In this document: one piece after another, positions 20,284 to 29,464 of the stretch | Numbering within the stretch: position 1 is the first letter of the stretch | Layout: every line of letters begins with the position of its first letter | Source of the DNA: Granulicella paludicola | GTDB lineage: Bacteria > Acidobacteriota > Terriglobia > Terriglobales > Acidobacteriaceae | Length of the DNA stretch: 64,000 nucleotides | Assembly (NCBI RefSeq): GCF_025685545.1 | Contig: NZ_JAGSYC010000025.1 | Coordinates: forward strand, 62,001 to 126,000 | Direction of reading: 5' to 3' | Position numbers and translations under genes: made by a program | The notes under the pieces: generated by a model | Told to the model about the DNA's origin: nothing | Database searches by the model: none | Seen by the model: the letters and a program-made list of their open reading frames with translations, nothing else

Positions 20284-22803
20284 CTAGTTGTGGCCGAGCG
20301 CGAGATCGATGAGGGTCTTTTCTTCCATCTCATGTGCCTTGGCAGAGCCGGTCGCGGGGCTGGCCGAAGCGGTGCGCTTGACGCTTAGTACCGTGCGGTC
20401 GCTGGCGAGGCGGTCGAGCAGCGGCTTCACGTAAGAGTAGGCACCCATGTTGGCCGGCTCTTCCTGCACCCAGACGATCTCTTTCGCGGAGGGGTGCATG
20501 GCGAGTGCGGCGGAGAGTTCAGCCTCAGGCCAGGGATAGAGCTGTTCGACGAAGATGATGCCGACCGACATGTCCTTACGCTTGGCACGCTCTACGCGGA
20601 GATTGTGGCCGATCTTGCCGCTGCAGACAAGCAGGCGGCGCGGATTGACGACGTCTTCGTCCGGAAGAACGTTCTGGAAGAACGGGCGAGCAAAGTCTGA
20701 AACCGGTGAGAGCGCATCGGGATGACGCAGCATCGACTTCGGGGTGAAGACGATGAGCGGCTTGCGCCACTTGCGCAGCGCCTGGCGACGCAGCAGATGG
20801 AAGTACTGCGATGCGTTTGAGGGTTGAGCGATCTGGATGTTGTCCTGTGCGGCGAGCTGTAGGTAGCGCTCCATGCGTGCGCTGGAGTGCTCCGGCCCCT
20901 GGCCTTCATAGCCATGTGGCAGCAGCATGACGACGCCGGAGAGCAGGCCCCACTTGGCTTCGCTGGCGGAGATGAACTGGTCGATGATGATCTGTGCGCC
21001 GTTGGCGAAGTCGCCGAACTGGGCCTCCCAGAGCGTCAGAGCCTCAGGGAAGTCGCGCGAGAAACCGTACTCGTAGCCAAGGCAGGCAGCCTCGGAGAGC
21101 ATCGAGTTGTAGACCTCCCATTTGCCTTGTTCGGGAGCGATATTGGCGAGCGGGGAGTAGCGGAACTCGGTTTCGATATCGATGAAAACCGAGTGGCGCT
21201 GATTGAAGGTGCCGCGCTGCGAGTCCTGACCGCTCAGGCGAACGGGCACGCCAGCCTTCAACAGCGAAGCGTAGGCCATGAGTTCCGCCATGCCGTAGTC
21301 GAAGGGCTTCTTTCCGTTGCCCATGTCCACGCGCTGTTCGAGCAGCTTCGCGACCTTGGGATGGATGTGGAAGCCTTCGGGTGCGGTGGTCAGCTTCGTA
21401 GCGAGCGCGGTGACCTCAGCAGCGTCAATACCCGTGTGCGGGTTGTCGTCGGGGCGAAGATGCGCGCCGTAGTAGGGGTCCCAATACTTGGGTAGCGAGT
21501 GCATCTTCGGCTTGTGATCTGCGGTGGTCGCGGTCTTCTGGTCTTCGAAGAACTTGTTCTGGATCTCGGCGATCTCGGCTGTGGGGTCCACACCGATCTG
21601 CTCGGCGAAGAGCTTGTAGAGCGGCGGATGGTCCTTGATGCGCGCGTAGCGACGCGGCTGCGTGACGGTCGGGTCATCGACCTCGGAGTGACCGTGGCGA
21701 CGGTAGCCGATGATATCAACGACGACGTCGGCGTGGAAGGTAGCGCGGAACTCCGCTGCCAGTGCGGCGATGCGTATCACGGCGATGGGGTCTTCAGCGT
21801 TGACGTGGAAGATGGGGATCGGCAGGCGCTTGGCGAGATCGGTGGCGAAGCGCGAGCTATTGCTCTCAGATGGCAGCGCGGTGAAGCCGAGCAGGTTGTT
21901 GGTGATGACCTGGATAGTGCCGCCAAGGTTGTAGCCCTCGAGCGTGGCGAGGTTCAGTGTTTCGGCGGTGACACCCTGGCCTGCGAAGGCAGCGTCGCCG
22001 TGGATGACGATCGGGAGGACCTGCTTGGGACCTTCTGCTCCTATGCGTGTCTGGTAGGCGCGCGTGCGGCCCATAACGACGGGATTCACGGCCTCAAGGT
22101 GTGAAGGGTTCGAGGCGAGGTGCAGCTCGACGGATTTGCCGGTGGGGGTGACGAGTGTGCCGGTCGCGCCCATGTGGTACTTCACATCGCCACCACCCAT
22201 GGTGCTGCGAGGATCGACATCTTCAAACTTCGCGAAGATCTCATAGGAGCTGCGGCCGACGGTGTTGACCATCACGTTCAAGCGGCCGCGATGGGCCATG
22301 CCAAAGAGACCGTAGGTTACGCCGTGCTCGGCTGAGGTCGAGAAGAGCTGATCCATGAAGGGGATCAGGACGGTGAGGCCTTCGAGGGAAAAGCGCTTCG
22401 TCCCTAGGTAGCGCTGCTGGATGACGGACTCGAAGATATCTGCCCGGATGAGGCCGGAGAGAATGCGCTCCTTCGTCAGCAGATCGTTGGGCACCGGAGC
22501 TTCGAGGCGCTGCTGAATCCAGCTGCGAATCTCGGGTGAAGGGATGTGCATGTACTCGGCTCCGATGGAGCCGCAGTAGTAGCGGCGGGCCTCTTCGGCG
22601 TCGGGACCGTCAGGGGCCGGTGTGGGGAAGGGCTCAGGGGGCAAGAACTGCCCGAGTGGGTCGAGCGAGGCCTGGAGATAGCCCCAGCGGCGGAAGATGT
22701 CGAAGGTGGCTTCTCTTGAGGAGCTACCGGCTTCGTGCGCAGGAGCGGGGGTGGTTTGCGGGGTAGATTTCGGTTTGGGCTTTATCGCGGTGGAGGACGC
22801 CAT
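20284..22803 (-). CDS. sucA: 2-oxoglutarate dehydrogenase E1 component
   Basis: This thiamine-diphosphate enzyme decarboxylates 2-oxoglutarate and passes the succinyl group to the E2 lipoyl domain in the TCA cycle. At 839 aa it is shorter than the enterobacterial enzyme (about 930) because its N-terminal region is reduced to a Pro/Ala-rich tail. Motifs seen are GMAHRGRLNVMVN, HGDAAFAGQGVTAETLNL, the cofactor segment YRRHGHSEVDDPTVTQP and SGQDSQRGTFNQRH. The E2 and E3 genes are not adjacent. It diverges from the cytochrome oxidase gene across a 460-bp regulatory interval. Confidence 0.96.
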   Translation of the reverse strand: MASSTAIKPKPKSTPQTTPAPAHEAGSSSREATFDIFRRWGYLQASLDPLGQFLPPEPFPTPAPDGPDAEEARRYYCGSIGAEYMHIPSPEIRSWIQQRLEAPVPNDLLTKERILSGLIRADIFESVIQQRYLGTKRFSLEGLTVLIPFMDQLFSTSAEHGVTYGLFGMAHRGRLNVMVNTVGRSSYEIFAKFEDVDPRSTMGGGDVKYHMGATGTLVTPTGKSVELHLASNPSHLEAVNPVVMGRTRAYQTRIGAEGPKQVLPIVIHGDAAFAGQGVTAETLNLATLEGYNLGGTIQVITNNLLGFTALPSESNSSRFATDLAKRLPIPIFHVNAEDPIAVIRIAALAAEFRATFHADVVVDIIGYRRHGHSEVDDPTVTQPRRYARIKDHPPLYKLFAEQIGVDPTAEIAEIQNKFFEDQKTATTADHKPKMHSLPKYWDPYYGAHLRPDDNPHTGIDAAEVTALATKLTTAPEGFHIHPKVAKLLEQRVDMGNGKKPFDYGMAELMAYASLLKAGVPVRLSGQDSQRGTFNQRHSVFIDIETEFRYSPLANIAPEQGKWEVYNSMLSEAACLGYEYGFSRDFPEALTLWEAQFGDFANGAQIIIDQFISASEAKWGLLSGVVMLLPHGYEGQGPEHSSARMERYLQLAAQDNIQIAQPSNASQYFHLLRRQALRKWRKPLIVFTPKSMLRHPDALSPVSDFARPFFQNVLPDEDVVNPRRLLVCSGKIGHNLRVERAKRKDMSVGIIFVEQLYPWPEAELSAALAMHPSAKEIVWVQEEPANMGAYSYVKPLLDRLASDRTVLSVKRTASASPATGSAKAHEMEEKTLIDLALGHN

Positions 22804-23017: not shown

Positions 23018-23033
23018 TGTGACGGCCGTCACA
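23018..23033. promoter_or_regulatory. CRP/FNR-family binding site 1
   Basis: TGTGACGGCCGTCACA is a perfect palindrome fitting TGTGA-N6-TCACA, the CRP-type consensus. About 42 bp downstream of its centre a start point would fall near 23067, with a -10-like GATGAT at 23055-23060. That is the geometry of class II activation. Confidence 0.72.
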
Positions 23034-23136
23034 TGAGTTCAGAGGCGAGTTGGAGATGATCTGTATCGGGAGTCAGGGATTTCTGTCACGCACGTTGTTG
23101 ACGGATGTTCGGCCCGGATTTTCTCGAAAGAATGCG

Positions 23137-23173
23137 CCCGTCGCTTGCACGTTAAGCGGCGGGATTTTCTTTT
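23137..23173 (+). terminator. intrinsic-terminator-like hairpin in the ctaD leader
   Basis: The arms CCCGTCGCTT and AAGCGGCGGG pair over ten positions with one G-U, around a 7-nt loop, and are followed by ATTTTCTTTT. It lies 300 bp before ctaD and between the two CRP-type sites, so it could end a short RNA of roughly 105 nt or act as an attenuator. Confidence 0.75.
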
Positions 23174-23204
23174 GAGCCTCCGAAAGTACCCCGTTGTCAG
23201 CCGT

Positions 23205-23220
23205 TGTGATGACTGTCACA
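23205..23220. promoter_or_regulatory. CRP/FNR-family binding site 2
   Basis: TGTGATGACTGTCACA fits TGTGA-N6-TCACA exactly. It lies 48 bp before the small Cys-rich ORF and 248 bp before ctaD. Confidence 0.72.
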
Positions 23221-23267
23221 GACGGATTCCTAAATGCAACCGAGGATGGTCGTGGAGGTGGTTTTTC

Positions 23268-23471
23268 ATGTCTATGGTCTCCAGGTCCGGGAGTGAGTGT
23301 GCCAACAGCGGTGCCGATGGCAGGTGCAGATGCGAGGGGAAGTGCACGGGGTATGCAACGCGGAGCGATTGTCCCCCGCTGATTGTTCTGGCTGTTGTGG
23401 CTGTGACGCAAACAGCCGTGATGCATTGTGTGGCCGCAGCCTCCGCTGCGTTGAAGGCGGGTGCACGATGA
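23268..23471 (+). CDS. small Cys-rich membrane ORF coupled to ctaD
   Basis: This 67-codon frame has one of the clearest Shine-Dalgarno sequences in the window (GGAGGTG, 7 bases before ATG 23268). Its stop overlaps the ctaD start as ATGA, the classical arrangement for coupled translation. The peptide has five Cys in its first 35 residues ([18 protein letters not shown], then SDC) and then one hydrophobic helix ([21 protein letters not shown]). I know no named family. It could be a metal- or haem-handling accessory peptide of the oxidase, or only a leader ORF whose translation opens the ctaD start. Composition alone does not settle whether the protein is kept. Confidence 0.5.
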
Positions 23472-25138
23472 GCGCAGCCATTGCACCGATACAACCGCGT
23501 GTTGAAGAGAAGCAGCAGCGTAAGGTCTACAACTACCTGAACGTTGAAGGCAGCATCAAGAGCTGGCTGCTTACGCAGGACCATAAGCGCATCGCGATCC
23601 TTTACCTGGTGGGCGTCACCTTCTTCTTCATGGTAGGTGGGTTACTAGCGATGGCTCTGCGCATGGAGCTGCTGACACCGGGCAGCGACATGATGGCGAT
23701 GGATACGTACAACAAGGTCTTTACCATGCATGGCGTGGTGATGATCTTCTTCGTCTTGATTCCAGCAATCCCCGCTGTGCTTGGCAACTTCCTGCTGCCG
23801 CTGATGCTCGGTGCAAGAGACCTCGCGTTTCCGAAGATCAACCTGCTCAGCTGGTATTGCTACATGATCGGCGCGGCCCTGCTGCTTTATACCGTGATCG
23901 CTGGCGGGATCGATACGGGCTGGACGTTCACGACACCTCTAAGCACACGTTTTGTGAATACCAATGTGATCTCTGGCGGCCTGGCCGCGTTCTTCGCGGG
24001 GTTCAGTTCGATCTTCACCGGCCTGAACTTTATCGTGACGACGCATCGTATGCGTGCACCTGGTATGACCTGGTTCAGAATGCCGCTCTTTGTGTGGGCG
24101 CACTATGCGACATCGGTCATCATGATTCTTGGCACGCCGGTGGTCTCGATTACGATTGTGCTGGTTGCGTTGGAGCGCTTGATAGGCATCGGTGTGTTCG
24201 ACCCGAGGCTGGGGGGCGATCCGCTCTTGTTCCAGCACCTGTTCTGGTTCTACTCGCATCCAGCGGTGTACGTGATGCTTCTGCCGTCGATGGGAGTGAT
24301 CAGCGAGGTCATCGCGTGCTTCTGCCGCAAGCGTATCTTCGGCTATACGGCGGTCGCGTTCAGTTCTGTGGCGATCGCAGTGTTCGGTTTCTTTGTGTGG
24401 GAACACCACATGTTCATCATGGGCGTCAGTCAGTATTCGGCACTGGTGTTCAGCTTGCTGACGATGCTGGTGGCGGTGCCTTCGGCGATCAAAGTGTTCA
24501 ACTGGACTTCGACACTTTACAAGGGCTCAATCACCTTTGAAGCGCCGATGGTCTATGCCTTCTGCTTCCTCGGGCTGTTCGTAATTGGCGGCTGCACAGG
24601 CGTTTTTCTCGGTTCTCTGGGGATGGACGTGCATCTCACGGAGACCTATTTTGTCGTGGCACACTTTCACTTTGTGATGGTGGGCTCGGTCATCATGGGT
24701 TTCATGGCGGGACTGCACTTTTGGTGGCCGAAGATTACGGGTCGCATGTATCCAGAAGCACCTGCGAAGGTCGCTGCCATCACGACGTTCATCGGCTTCT
24801 TCTTTACCTTTGGACCGCAGTTCATTCTGGGCTACCTTGGAATGCCGAGACGGTATGCAATGTATCCGCCGGAGTGGCAGATGCTGAACGTGATGTCTAC
24901 CGCCGGAGCGACGATCATGGGCTTTGGTTATCTCCTCACGATGCTCTATCTGGCCTGGAGCCTGCGTTACGGAGTCAAAGCGACAACCAATCCCTGGAGG
25001 GCCTACGGATTGGAGTGGACCGTCAGCAGCCCACCGCCGACGGAAAACTTTGCCCGGGTCCCGCTGGTAACGCACGAGGCCTATGACTATGAGTGGATGG
25101 ATGCGCAGCCGGAGGCATCAAGATCCGCGTCGTATTGA
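23468..25138 (+). CDS. ctaD: haem-copper oxidase subunit I (type A2)
   Basis: This 556-aa protein is the catalytic subunit of an O2-reducing terminal oxidase with twelve or more membrane helices. Haem and copper ligands are visible: [19 protein letters not shown] (CuB His and the cross-linked Tyr), WEHHMF and [10 protein letters not shown]. The motif YSHPAVY instead of GHPEVY marks the A2 subtype, in which Tyr-Ser replaces the D-channel Glu. The K-channel Lys is in [11 protein letters not shown] 23468 overlaps the preceding small ORF. Subunits II and III are not adjacent, so this is an isolated subunit I gene. Two CRP-type sites lie in its leader and an FNR-like regulator is convergent just behind it. 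Confidence 0.93.
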
Positions 25139-25152
25139 AAACGCAGCGGGTA

Positions 25153-25851
25153 TCAGCAGTAGAGCGATTGCAGCTGCTCCGGTTTGAGGAGTGTCATGCG
25201 GTCGCCCTGCTGCCGAACCAGGCCTTCTGCGCGGAAGCGAGTGAGCAGGCGGGTTACGGTTTCGCGCGAGAGGCCTGCCATGCATCCTAGCTCTTCATGC
25301 GTGAGCGGCATGCCAAACTCCAGGGCCTCGTTGTTATGTGTGTGATCGATGCGGGCCCAGTCGAGAAGAGTGCTGGCTAACTTACCGGCAGCGGAGGTGG
25401 ACAGAGCAAGGCGGCGCGCGCTCAGAAGGGCAGCTTCGTATTCGCGAGCTACGGCAACGGCAGTATTTTCGCCCACGTCGGGCGAACTGCGCATAAATTT
25501 CAGAAAGTTGTCGCGCGGTATAGACTTCAGTTCGCAGGCTTCGAGAGCTTCGGCGGTCACCTTATAGTTCGAGGCGCGAAGCACTGAGGCGAGGCCGAGA
25601 ACGTCGCCGGGGCCTGCAATGCGGACGAGCAGGAGGCGTCCATCTTCAGAGGCGGCGGAGACTTTGATCCGGCCTTTGCAGACGATGTAGACGTGATTTG
25701 CGGTAAAGCCTTCGCGAAGAATGGTGCTGTGTGCTTCGAAGTGATGCGAAGATCCGATGGCCTGGAGATCGAGCAGGTCGAGTGCGGGCAGCGTGCAGAA
25801 GCACTGCGGCCCTCGCACGGCACAGGTAACGCAGCTGTGAGTTGCCGGCAT
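25153..25851 (-). CDS. Crp/Fnr-family regulator with FNR-like cysteines
   Basis: The 232-aa protein has a cyclic-nucleotide-binding-type beta-barrel, a long dimer helix and a C-terminal HTH. N-terminal Cys7, Cys10, Cys17 and Cys19, together with Cys106 in EACELKSIP (which aligns with FNR Cys122 in MVCEIPF), suggest an oxygen-sensing 4Fe-4S cluster as in FNR. The recognition helix, however, is SRETVTR (195-201), matching CRP SRETVGR at the residues that read TGTGA, rather than the FNR version. It converges on ctaD with 14 bp between stops, and two TGTGA-N6-TCACA sites lie upstream of that gene. It is therefore the obvious candidate regulator of the oxidase; this is inference. Confidence 0.9.
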   Translation of the reverse strand: MPATHSCVTCAVRGPQCFCTLPALDLLDLQAIGSSHHFEAHSTILREGFTANHVYIVCKGRIKVSAASEDGRLLLVRIAGPGDVLGLASVLRASNYKVTAEALEACELKSIPRDNFLKFMRSSPDVGENTAVAVAREYEAALLSARRLALSTSAAGKLASTLLDWARIDHTHNNEALEFGMPLTHEELGCMAGLSRETVTRLLTRFRAEGLVRQQGDRMTLLKPEQLQSLYC

Positions 25852-27751: not shown

Positions 27752-29464
27752 ATGAGCGAAGAACAGAATAATCCAGTCATTCCTGCGCCGATGGCGACGT
27801 ACCGCGCGGAGATGGCGTTTCCTTCACTGACGGACGAGATGCTCGTCCGGCTGCAGAGCTATGGTCGTCCGGATACCTTTGAAGCGAATGTTTCGTTGTG
27901 GTCGCGCGGGCAGCGAGAGGTGGACATGTTTGTTCTGCTCGAAGGCTCGATTGAAGTCTTCGTACGCGATGAGCAGGACGATACACAGGTCTATGTGACG
28001 ATCCACGAGAAGCAGTTTTCAGGTGAGCTCGACATGCTGAGTTCGCGCCCGACGCTGGTGAACGGACGCACGGCGACCGCGTGCAGGATACTGCGCATCC
28101 CACGCCCTGAGTTGCAGCGGTTGATGCGGTCCGAAGGCGACATAGCGAACCTCATCATGCAGGCCATTATCTGGCGTCGGCTCGGGATTCTGGAGAACGC
28201 GACGGCGGGCATTGTGCTGCTGGGCAGCAGTACGGCGGCGGAGACGATCCAGCTGCAACGCTTTCTCACGCGCAACTCCTATCCGCACCGACTGCTGGAG
28301 CCAACGGCAGAGCAGAGCGCCTGTTCTGAGGCGCGTGATCTAGCGGGCGGCGAAAAGTTTTTGCCAGCGATCCTGTTTACGGACGGCACGATTCTGCATC
28401 GACCGACGATTGCGGAGCTCGCCGACCAACTCGGTTTGACCGAGCAGCTCGACCCGGAGACCACGTACGACATCACCGTCGTAGGTGCCGGTCCCGCGGG
28501 GCTGGCGGCGGCGGTGTATGGTGCTTCAGAAGGGCTCTGCACGCTGGTGGTCGAAGGTACCGCGCCCGGTGGACAGGCCGGCACGAGCTCGAAGATCGAA
28601 AATTATCTCGGTTTTCCGACTGGTGTTTCAGGTCAGGAGCTGGCGAACCGAGCTCTGGTGCAGGCGCAGAAGTTTGGAGCGCGCCTGGCGATCTCGCGCG
28701 ATGTGGTGGGCATCGATCAAGTGGAGGGAATGCACCATGTGCGTCTTTCGGATGGGACGACACTGCATTCGCGGTCGATCGTGATTGCCACCGGCGCGGC
28801 TTACCGCAAGCTATCGGTACCAAACTACGAAAGGTTCGAAGGTCAGGGCATCCAGTATGCAGCCACCGCGATGGAGGCTGTGTTGTGTCGACATCAGGAG
28901 GTCGCTGTTGTCGGCGGCGGCAACTCTGCGGGCCAGGCTGCGATCTTCCTCTCTGGCATTGCAAAGCATGTACACCTGATCATCCGGGGACGCGCTCTTG
29001 CGGCGACGATGTCGCAATATCTGATCTCGCGCATCGAGAACTCTTCTCGCATCACTCTGCATGTATGCACGGAGATCGAAAGGCTGGATGGCGAGAAGAG
29101 TTTGAGCAGCGCGACCTGGATCAACCAGGGAACAGGCCAGCGAGAGACGCGAGACATCGGAAGCCTGTTTGTGATGATCGGTGCGGAGCCGAATACCGGC
29201 TGGCTCTACGGCACACTGGCGCTTGATAAGAAGGGCTTTGTAATTACTGGCACAGAGAAGGCGTTCGAGAACACGCGCTATGCAACCAGTGTTCCCGGCA
29301 TCTATGCAGTGGGCGATGCTCGCTCGGATTCTGTGAAGCGTGTTGCGTCGGCGGTTGGCGAGGGTTCTGTGGTCGTATCGGATATCCATCGTTACCTTGC
29401 ACGCCAAATCGAAGTAGGAGCGGATGCCAACTCAACGCTGGCGGCAATGCAGGCTTCGCACTAA
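27752..29464 (+). CDS. cNMP-binding / Trx-fold / thioredoxin-reductase-like fusion
   Basis: This 570-aa protein has three parts. Residues 20-140 form a cyclic-nucleotide-binding-type barrel (SLWSRGQREVDMFVLLEGSIEVF). Residues 150-230 look like a thioredoxin/glutaredoxin fold without redox Cys (FLPAILFTDGTILHRPT). Residues 238-555 are a thioredoxin-reductase-like flavoprotein with the FAD motif VVGAGPAGLAAAVYGA, the NADPH motif VVGGGNSAGQAA and the C-terminal IYAVGDAR. The CATC redox pair of true thioredoxin reductases is replaced by AATA at about residue 370, so it cannot reduce thioredoxin through that site. It may be a sensor-controlled NAD(P)H oxidoreductase. It follows the RNB gene on the same strand after 87 bp. 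Confidence 0.88.
   Translation: MSEEQNNPVIPAPMATYRAEMAFPSLTDEMLVRLQSYGRPDTFEANVSLWSRGQREVDMFVLLEGSIEVFVRDEQDDTQVYVTIHEKQFSGELDMLSSRPTLVNGRTATACRILRIPRPELQRLMRSEGDIANLIMQAIIWRRLGILENATAGIVLLGSSTAAETIQLQRFLTRNSYPHRLLEPTAEQSACSEARDLAGGEKFLPAILFTDGTILHRPTIAELADQLGLTEQLDPETTYDITVVGAGPAGLAAAVYGASEGLCTLVVEGTAPGGQAGTSSKIENYLGFPTGVSGQELANRALVQAQKFGARLAISRDVVGIDQVEGMHHVRLSDGTTLHSRSIVIATGAAYRKLSVPNYERFEGQGIQYAATAMEAVLCRHQEVAVVGGGNSAGQAAIFLSGIAKHVHLIIRGRALAATMSQYLISRIENSSRITLHVCTEIERLDGEKSLSSATWINQGTGQRETRDIGSLFVMIGAEPNTGWLYGTLALDKKGFVITGTEKAFENTRYATSVPGIYAVGDARSDSVKRVASAVGEGSVVVSDIHRYLARQIEVGADANSTLAAMQASH

Follow-up and report, generated by a model that had tools for sequence, protein, structure and literature searches.

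The analysed window is a 64 kb stretch of the 4.96 Mb assembly of Granulicella paludicola, in which two CRP/FNR-type operators, an isolated oxidase gene and a regulator gene lie close together. The main operator, TGTGATGACTGTCACA (23205..23220, + strand), is located 47 bp upstream of an open reading frame (ORF) for a small cysteine-rich protein of 67 aa (23268..23471, +), which is the first gene of the proposed transcript and whose stop codon overlaps the start of ctaD (ATGA). The ctaD gene (23468..25138, +) encodes an orphan heme-copper oxidase subunit I (CtaD) of 556 aa, which matches Pfam COX1 (1.3e-140) and is of the A2 type by motif. It is convergent with the gene of a 232-aa CRP/FNR-family regulator (25153..25851, −), which carries an N-terminal C-x2-C-x6-C-x-C arrangement and the helix SRETVTR. 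A second exact operator, TGTGACGGCCGTCACA (23018..23033, +), is found further upstream, and its role is unsure. The comparison with related genomes supports well the existence of a conserved class II control unit for the small cysteine protein and the orphan CtaD.

Both 16-mers agree exactly with TGTGA-N6-TCACA, as the original prediction had claimed, and they are the only matches in the window when up to one mismatch is allowed. The presence of two sites per window is by count alone unremarkable, because shuffled windows yielded a mean of 1.41 matches at this tolerance and two or more matches in 42 of 100 cases. In the whole genome, three exact sites were found, vs two for a reversed control pattern. 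The unusual points are that two of the three genomic sites lie in this window, within 203 bp, and that one of them recurs at the same position in relatives. The analysed set comprised 44 small ORFs, from the window and the fetched loci, and start codons were assigned heuristically. Just upstream of 42 of these 44 there is a site that deviates from the consensus by one mismatch at most, and in 33 cases it is exact. The distance between the 3′ edge of the site and the chosen start codon was 42-53 bp, with one outlier of 26 bp, for which the start codon was probably misjudged. Random 120-bp stretches from the same loci contained an exact site in 113 of 9600 cases, true sites counted in. In loci comprising both the small ORF and ctaD the site was found in 21 of 21, and in 19 of them it was exact. 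Moreover, position 6 was Y and position 11 was R in each of the 42 sites, giving TGTGA-Y-N4-R-TCACA, although the constancy of the flanking letters is partly due to construction, since the sites were picked at one mismatch or less.

The second operator behaved differently from the first. No counterpart of the 23018..23033 site was found in L066, whose regulator homologue (78%) is the closest among those of the 60 relatives searched. The expectation that relatives would share the gene order together with both sites was thus borne out for one site only in L066, and a cooperation of the two sites is unsupported. Two comparisons were used as controls for the main operator. The exact site was sought in 18 kb around the operon copy of ctaD in the same genome, and none was found. 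In the other comparison, a site with at most one mismatch was present in the 500 bp upstream of ctaD in 0 of 77 loci without a regulator homologue vs 4 of 4 loci with one; these loci came from a scan of the best 80 of 590 relatives in the genome collection, with three of the four regulator-linked loci obtained in this way and the fourth, from Terriglobus roseus, added by hand. Little weight was given to the latter comparison, because the CuA motif accompanies 72 of the 77 loci, so that most of these genes are probably operon-internal and a promoter is not expected in front of them. The 18-kb comparison is therefore the better control.

The promoters also share a common geometry. In class II activation by CRP/FNR proteins the site is centred at about −41.5, so the −10 element begins 22-23 nt past the 16-mer. 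Each of the 42 promoters has an xANNNT hexamer that starts at offset 22 or 23 past the site, and so do all 33 that are left when near-copies are removed and all 24 that share less than 50% identity; the best offset pair in 1000 shuffles reached at most 14 of 33. All 42 promoters thus have the class II spacing (−41.5/−42.5), with the start site predicted. In the window, the predicted −10 hexamer GAGGAT (23242..23247, +) is located 22 nt past the operator, so that the centre of the site falls at −41.5, from where class II activation takes place. Transcription would then start near 23254, as predicted from this spacing, and a ribosome-binding-site-like GGAGG occupies 23254..23258 (+) in front of the small ORF. 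Repression, in which the site would block the promoter and no activation would take place, has to be considered at this point, as CRP/FNR proteins can also repress. However, the −10 stands at the class II activating distance in all 42 promoters, with the site occupying the −35 position, and repression is very improbable. Activation remains the preferred reading. When all exact sites of the loci examined for spacing were taken together, small-ORF sites included, 45 of 49 had a hexamer in at least one direction. A GATGAT at 23055..23060 (+), at offset 22 from the second operator, is a possible −10 which may have arisen by chance. The third exact site of the genome (C20:565331; L209:6332-6347) is likewise accompanied by a −10 at class II distance, which faces an uncharacterised ORF of 62 codons.

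The small ORF changes the view of what the operator controls. The original prediction placed the sites upstream of ctaD and overlooked the 67-codon ORF that lies between the 23205..23220 site and ctaD and that is the first target gene. A transcript with ctaD as its first gene was rejected, as the small ORF precedes it. Substitutions by codon position were 130/123/292 and pN/pS was 0.35 in 12 hand-chosen pairs, some of which share a member, and the small ORF is coding. Its relatives adjoin the same type of site whether or not ctaD is present in the locus. The encoded proteins share the motif C-x-G-[YF]-x5-C-P, most of them have another C four positions before the first Cys of the motif, and the two Cys, the Gly, the Pro and one Val are invariant in 26 sequences. 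No NCBIfam match was found for the small protein, nor any Pfam match above cut-off. Four of five small proteins tested matched weakly the Cys-rich start of DUF2284 (PF10050), a predicted metal-binding domain, with 12.6-15.8 bits vs a cut-off of 25; all remain below the Pfam cut-off for membership, and the protein of the window is the one of the five without such a match. An order-level search (model A1) gave a match at E <= 0.01 in 46 of 200 genomes, 37 of them at 2.8e-8 or better, and a search of the phylum, in which the best 20 candidates per genome were scored, gave a match at E <= 1e-4 in at least 10 of 297 genomes. All the matches from both searches are confined to Acidobacteriaceae, the family to which the window belongs. 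No description of the small-protein family or its promoter was found in the open-licence PMC papers searched. The family is unnamed so far and seen in one taxonomic family only.

The product of the second gene belongs to a separate group of CtaD proteins. The YSHP motif marks A2-type heme-copper oxidases, and the orphan CtaD has YSHPAVY at 262 together with the ligand histidines; H88, H264, H313, H314, H399 and H401 are unchanged across the 21 orphan and 15 operon copies compared. The isolation of ctaD was confirmed. No CuA motif (subunit II) was found in the 64 kb window, which consequently holds no complete caa3 operon, whereas each of the other two COX1 genes of the genome, one of A2 and one of A1 type by motif, has a CuA motif in its locus. 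In a tree of 39 sequences, a branch with support of 100/98 separates 21 orphan CtaD proteins, namely those of 20 of the 21 small-ctaD loci and that of T. roseus, from 18 operon-type copies. Eleven positions differ consistently between the 21 orphan and 15 operon copies. Judged by these conserved residues, it is a paralogue of the operon-borne CtaD that has remained catalytically intact.

The regulator belongs to the CRP/FNR superfamily, with PF00027 at 73.4 bits and PF13545 at 64.9 bits, both above cut-off. Among proteins of solved structure, it is closest in sequence to members of the CRP/FNR family and to CRP, and the AlphaFold model (mean pLDDT, a per-residue confidence score, of 66) has a CRP-like order of elements. 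The combination of an R-E-T-x-x-R helix with TGTGA sites is that of a CRP-type DNA reader, as far as sequence can indicate. A homologue at E <= 1e-20 was found in 45 of 61 genomes (its own and the 60 relatives), and one lies within 6 kb in 18 of the 21 small-ctaD loci. Around the 13 closest homologues (L066-L078), the site is present in 10 loci. The regulator is favoured as the reader of the site because it is the only CRP/FNR factor of the genome with a RET-type helix, no other of the ten cyclic-nucleotide-binding (cNMP) domain proteins found there having one. It is very likely, on this sequence evidence, the activator of the small-ctaD promoter.

There is a slight chance that a different protein, Rex or another CRP/FNR member, reads the site in place of the neighbouring regulator. 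A regulator homologue is absent within 6 kb in three of the 21 small-ctaD loci, and Rex likewise binds TGTGA-n6-TCACA (PMC2883068). On the other hand, all 42 sites have Y at position 6, where the Rex consensus TTGTGAAW4TTCACAA has A, and the RET helix and the proximity of the regulator in the remaining 18 loci speak for the neighbour. Rex itself was ruled out as the reader, since its N-domain (PF06971) was sought in the genome and no match was found.

The second possibility concerning the target is that the sites serve mainly the divergent neighbour sucA (2-oxoglutarate dehydrogenase E1; 20284..22803, −), a gene of the tricarboxylic acid cycle, with ctaD as a bystander. A sucA match occurs on the fetched stretch in 11 of the 44 small-ORF loci, the window included, and several loci keep the regulator, the site and the small ORF beside sucA and have no ctaD. 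However, a sucA match accompanies only 2 of the 21 small-ctaD loci, and a class II −10 towards sucA was sought from both window sites and not found from either. It is quite unlikely that sucA is the main target; it may be a secondary one. The control unit composed of regulator, site and oxidase gene, as originally proposed, is thus strongly supported by the site (21 of 21), the regulator (18 of 21) and the class II spacing (42 of 42), with the correction that the small ORF comes first and ctaD is coupled behind it.

The regulator has the predicted Cys residues 7, 10, 17, 19 and 106 as well as the SRETVTR helix, and the cysteines differ in their conservation. Among 49 homologues, a set restricted to regulator matches of at least 120 residues (which excludes, for example, that of L115), Cys7 is present in 49, Cys10 in 48 and Cys19 in 46, while Cys106 is replaced in 13. 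In the 22 ctaD-linked rows, two of which are second copies of the same contigs and one a 39% paralogue, Cys7, Cys10 and Cys19 are each found in 22 of 22. The free variation of the cysteines that would have spoken against the original prediction is not seen for these three. The motif is altered, by a lost Cys or a changed spacing, in all eight rows without ctaD beside the regulator (L068, L072-L078), and seven of these have sucA on the stretch, L076 being cut; the eight rows resemble one clade, hence they perhaps reflect few events. The alignment of Cys106 with Cys122 of FNR was mistaken. In the alignment with CRP and FNR, the Cys106 column holds Cys in E. coli CRP and Ser in FNR, and the Cys122 column corresponds to residue 109. 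The FNR set of ligands, three N-terminal Cys and one at the Cys122 position, is accordingly incomplete, the N-terminal Cys being present in other spacing. The cAMP pocket of CRP comprises E72, R82 and S83, and the regulator has a gap at E72 and neither R nor S at 82-83. It scored 68.1 bits against the CRP model (cut-off 266), 64.2 against FnrL (300) and 50.6 against Fnr (228). An iron-sulfur (Fe-S) cluster in the regulator is plausible.

The link to oxygen comes from T. roseus DSM 18391, which is strain KBS 63 (PMC8407424). Its genome contains the unit (L203), with a regulator homologue (50%), a small ORF, ctaD (74%) and an exact site followed by a −10 at the proper spacing, and in addition a separate ctaD with CuA in the locus (L161). 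Two A2 homologues were described in this strain, one in a superoperon with alternative complex III (ACIII) and one single (Trojan et al., PMC8407424). We infer from the missing CuA that the single gene is the L203 copy. According to that study, each of the two ctaD genes was higher at 0.001 μM O2, a level termed "apparent anoxia", than at 10 μM, and the single one remained expressed and up once conditions were shifted to anoxia (PMC8407424). The main text of that paper contains no mention of CRP, FNR, a regulator, a transcription factor or a small protein. Oxygen is preferred over nitrosative stress, the two signals named in the original prediction, because the single ctaD of T. roseus is reported to be up at 0.001 μM O2 and the unit is present there. 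Low O2 is likely to be the signal.

The same wiring could nevertheless respond to nitric oxide, thiol oxidation or a bound metal such as zinc, with the orphan CtaD as a poison-tolerant isoform, as CcoN4 of Pseudomonas aeruginosa is under cyanide. The conserved C-x2-C-x8-C spacing differs from that of E. coli FNR, and an orphan oxidase subunit of P. aeruginosa with an adjoining regulator answers to cyanide (PMC10790758). Against this stand the response of the single ctaD of T. roseus to the O2 level (PMC8407424) and a homologue adjoining cydAB-like genes in L111; another signal is unlikely, though it deserves more attention than the alternatives concerning reader, target or repression. At L111:2479-5796, a regulator homologue with a CFC motif and an exact site are followed by cydA/cydB-like genes, named from sequence, and these bd-oxidase genes are a possible target of the same type of regulator. 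Regulator paralogues also lie beside universal-stress-like genes and several TGTGA sites in L079, L081 and L085, and L079 further holds phosphoketolase-like, acetate-kinase-like and nitroreductase-like genes, all named from sequence. In Acidobacterium capsulatum, low O2 is accompanied by a rise of several uspA homologues (PMC11636273).

We consider it rather probable that the regulator, the class II promoter, the small protein and the orphan CtaD form a low-oxygen respiratory switch. The regulator would sense falling O2 through its N-terminal cysteines, probably by an Fe-S cluster, and would bind TGTGA-Y-N4-R-TCACA at 23205-23220 as a class II activator, centred at about −41.5 from a start near 23254. 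The transcript would provide the small cysteine-rich protein and the translationally coupled orphan A2-type CtaD. As subunits II and III are missing nearby, the orphan CtaD would probably replace the CtaD of the ACIII-A2 caa3 complex to give a low-oxygen isoform, and the small protein would probably aid the metal or heme assembly of CtaD or adapt the complex. A more specific version is put forward only tentatively: a dedicated isoform switch of Acidobacteriaceae, in which a CRP-like reader, equipped at its N-terminus with a distinct type of FNR-like metal sensor, acts on a class II promoter that co-produces an alternative catalytic subunit, which would enter the ACIII-caa3 supercomplex, and a new small metal-binding protein solely for the exchange.

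Several observations weigh against such a switch. Three small-ctaD loci (L099, which is a short contig, L112 and L114) have no regulator homologue within 6 kb, the regulator of L093 is a 39% paralogue-like protein, and two small ORFs (L086 and L113) have no site. Among the closest homologues, L069, L076 and L078 have no site; L076 is cut by the contig end, L069 has no ctaD though that side is present, and L078 has sucA with neither site nor small ORF. Cys17 is found in only 16 and Cys106 in only 19 of the 22 ctaD-linked rows, and the regulator scores slightly nearer to the CRP model than to those of FNR or FnrL. In the AlphaFold model, residues 1-21 have a pLDDT below 50, so that the cysteine arm is unresolved and a cluster is neither supported nor contradicted. 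The ACIII-A2 superoperon of T. roseus is also up at low O2, and low-O2 induction therefore needs no such site; ctaD genes are, moreover, mixed in pattern in KBS 83 and A. capsulatum (PMC8407424).

Abundant soil Acidobacteria have been reported to respire at nanomolar O2 by means of "low-affinity" oxidases (PMC8407424). An isoform switch, if true, would explain this ability. In T. roseus the unit offers a candidate regulator, operator, promoter geometry and an overlooked small protein in a strain already studied for its response to O2, and the question of low-O2 respiration is therefore directly testable there. The results also add an unnamed small-protein family and a catalytic-subunit paralogue that is kept together with its own control elements.

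Further elements were noticed in the loci and in the window. Where ctaD is absent from the locus, the small ORF can be followed on its 3′ side by a noncoding element of about 115 nt with three hairpins (L074:7523-7638, −; also L068, L072, L073, L075, L076, L077, L115, L116 and L117). It was found in 9 of 61 genomes with 82-100% identity to the query, in single copy except for two in one genome. Against Rfam, none of the 7 sources searched gave a match that reached the gathering score. Both-side changes occur at 6 of 53 predicted pairs in 9 sequences, and the element is possibly a new structured RNA. The window also encodes, at 27752-29464 (+), a thioredoxin-reductase-like flavin adenine dinucleotide (FAD) protein with an N-terminal cyclic-nucleotide-binding domain, and the genome holds two more such proteins by sequence reading (L005 and L009).

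Compared with known systems, the regulator shares the SRET-type recognition helix with E. coli CRP, which reads the TGTGA half site and acts in class II geometry, and differs from it by the missing cAMP-pocket residues, the additional N-terminal cysteines and the low score (68.1 bits vs 266). With E. coli FNR and alphaproteobacterial FnrL, which activate in class II fashion, it shares the N-terminal cysteine cluster, and the FnrL NCBIfam model matches residues 4-221. Nevertheless, it has no Cys at the Cys122 column, its helix is RET and not VET, and its scores are far below the cut-offs. An FNR-kind sensor on CRP-type DNA is already known from Bacillus, as TGTGA-N6-TCACA is listed as an FNR consensus with reference to the Bacillus subtilis Fnr regulon (PMC8151001, Table 1). 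The Fnr proteins of B. subtilis and B. cereus share family and consensus with the regulator, and they bind an O2-labile 4Fe-4S cluster through three Cys and an Asp (PMC3520743). Their ligands, however, are C-terminal whereas the cysteines of the regulator are N-terminal, and their targets differ. An orphan oxidase subunit with its own regulator is likewise known: CcoN4/MpaR of P. aeruginosa combines an orphan catalytic subunit with a dedicated adjacent regulator and a palindrome, and differs in that the oxidase is of the cbb3 and not the A2 caa3 type, the regulator is predicted to bind pyridoxal phosphate (PLP) and the signal is cyanide (PMC5697931, PMC10790758). Finally, among the single A2 ctaD genes of acidobacteria (Trojan et al., 2021), the T. 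roseus copy is induced at low O2, and its genome holds the unit described here.

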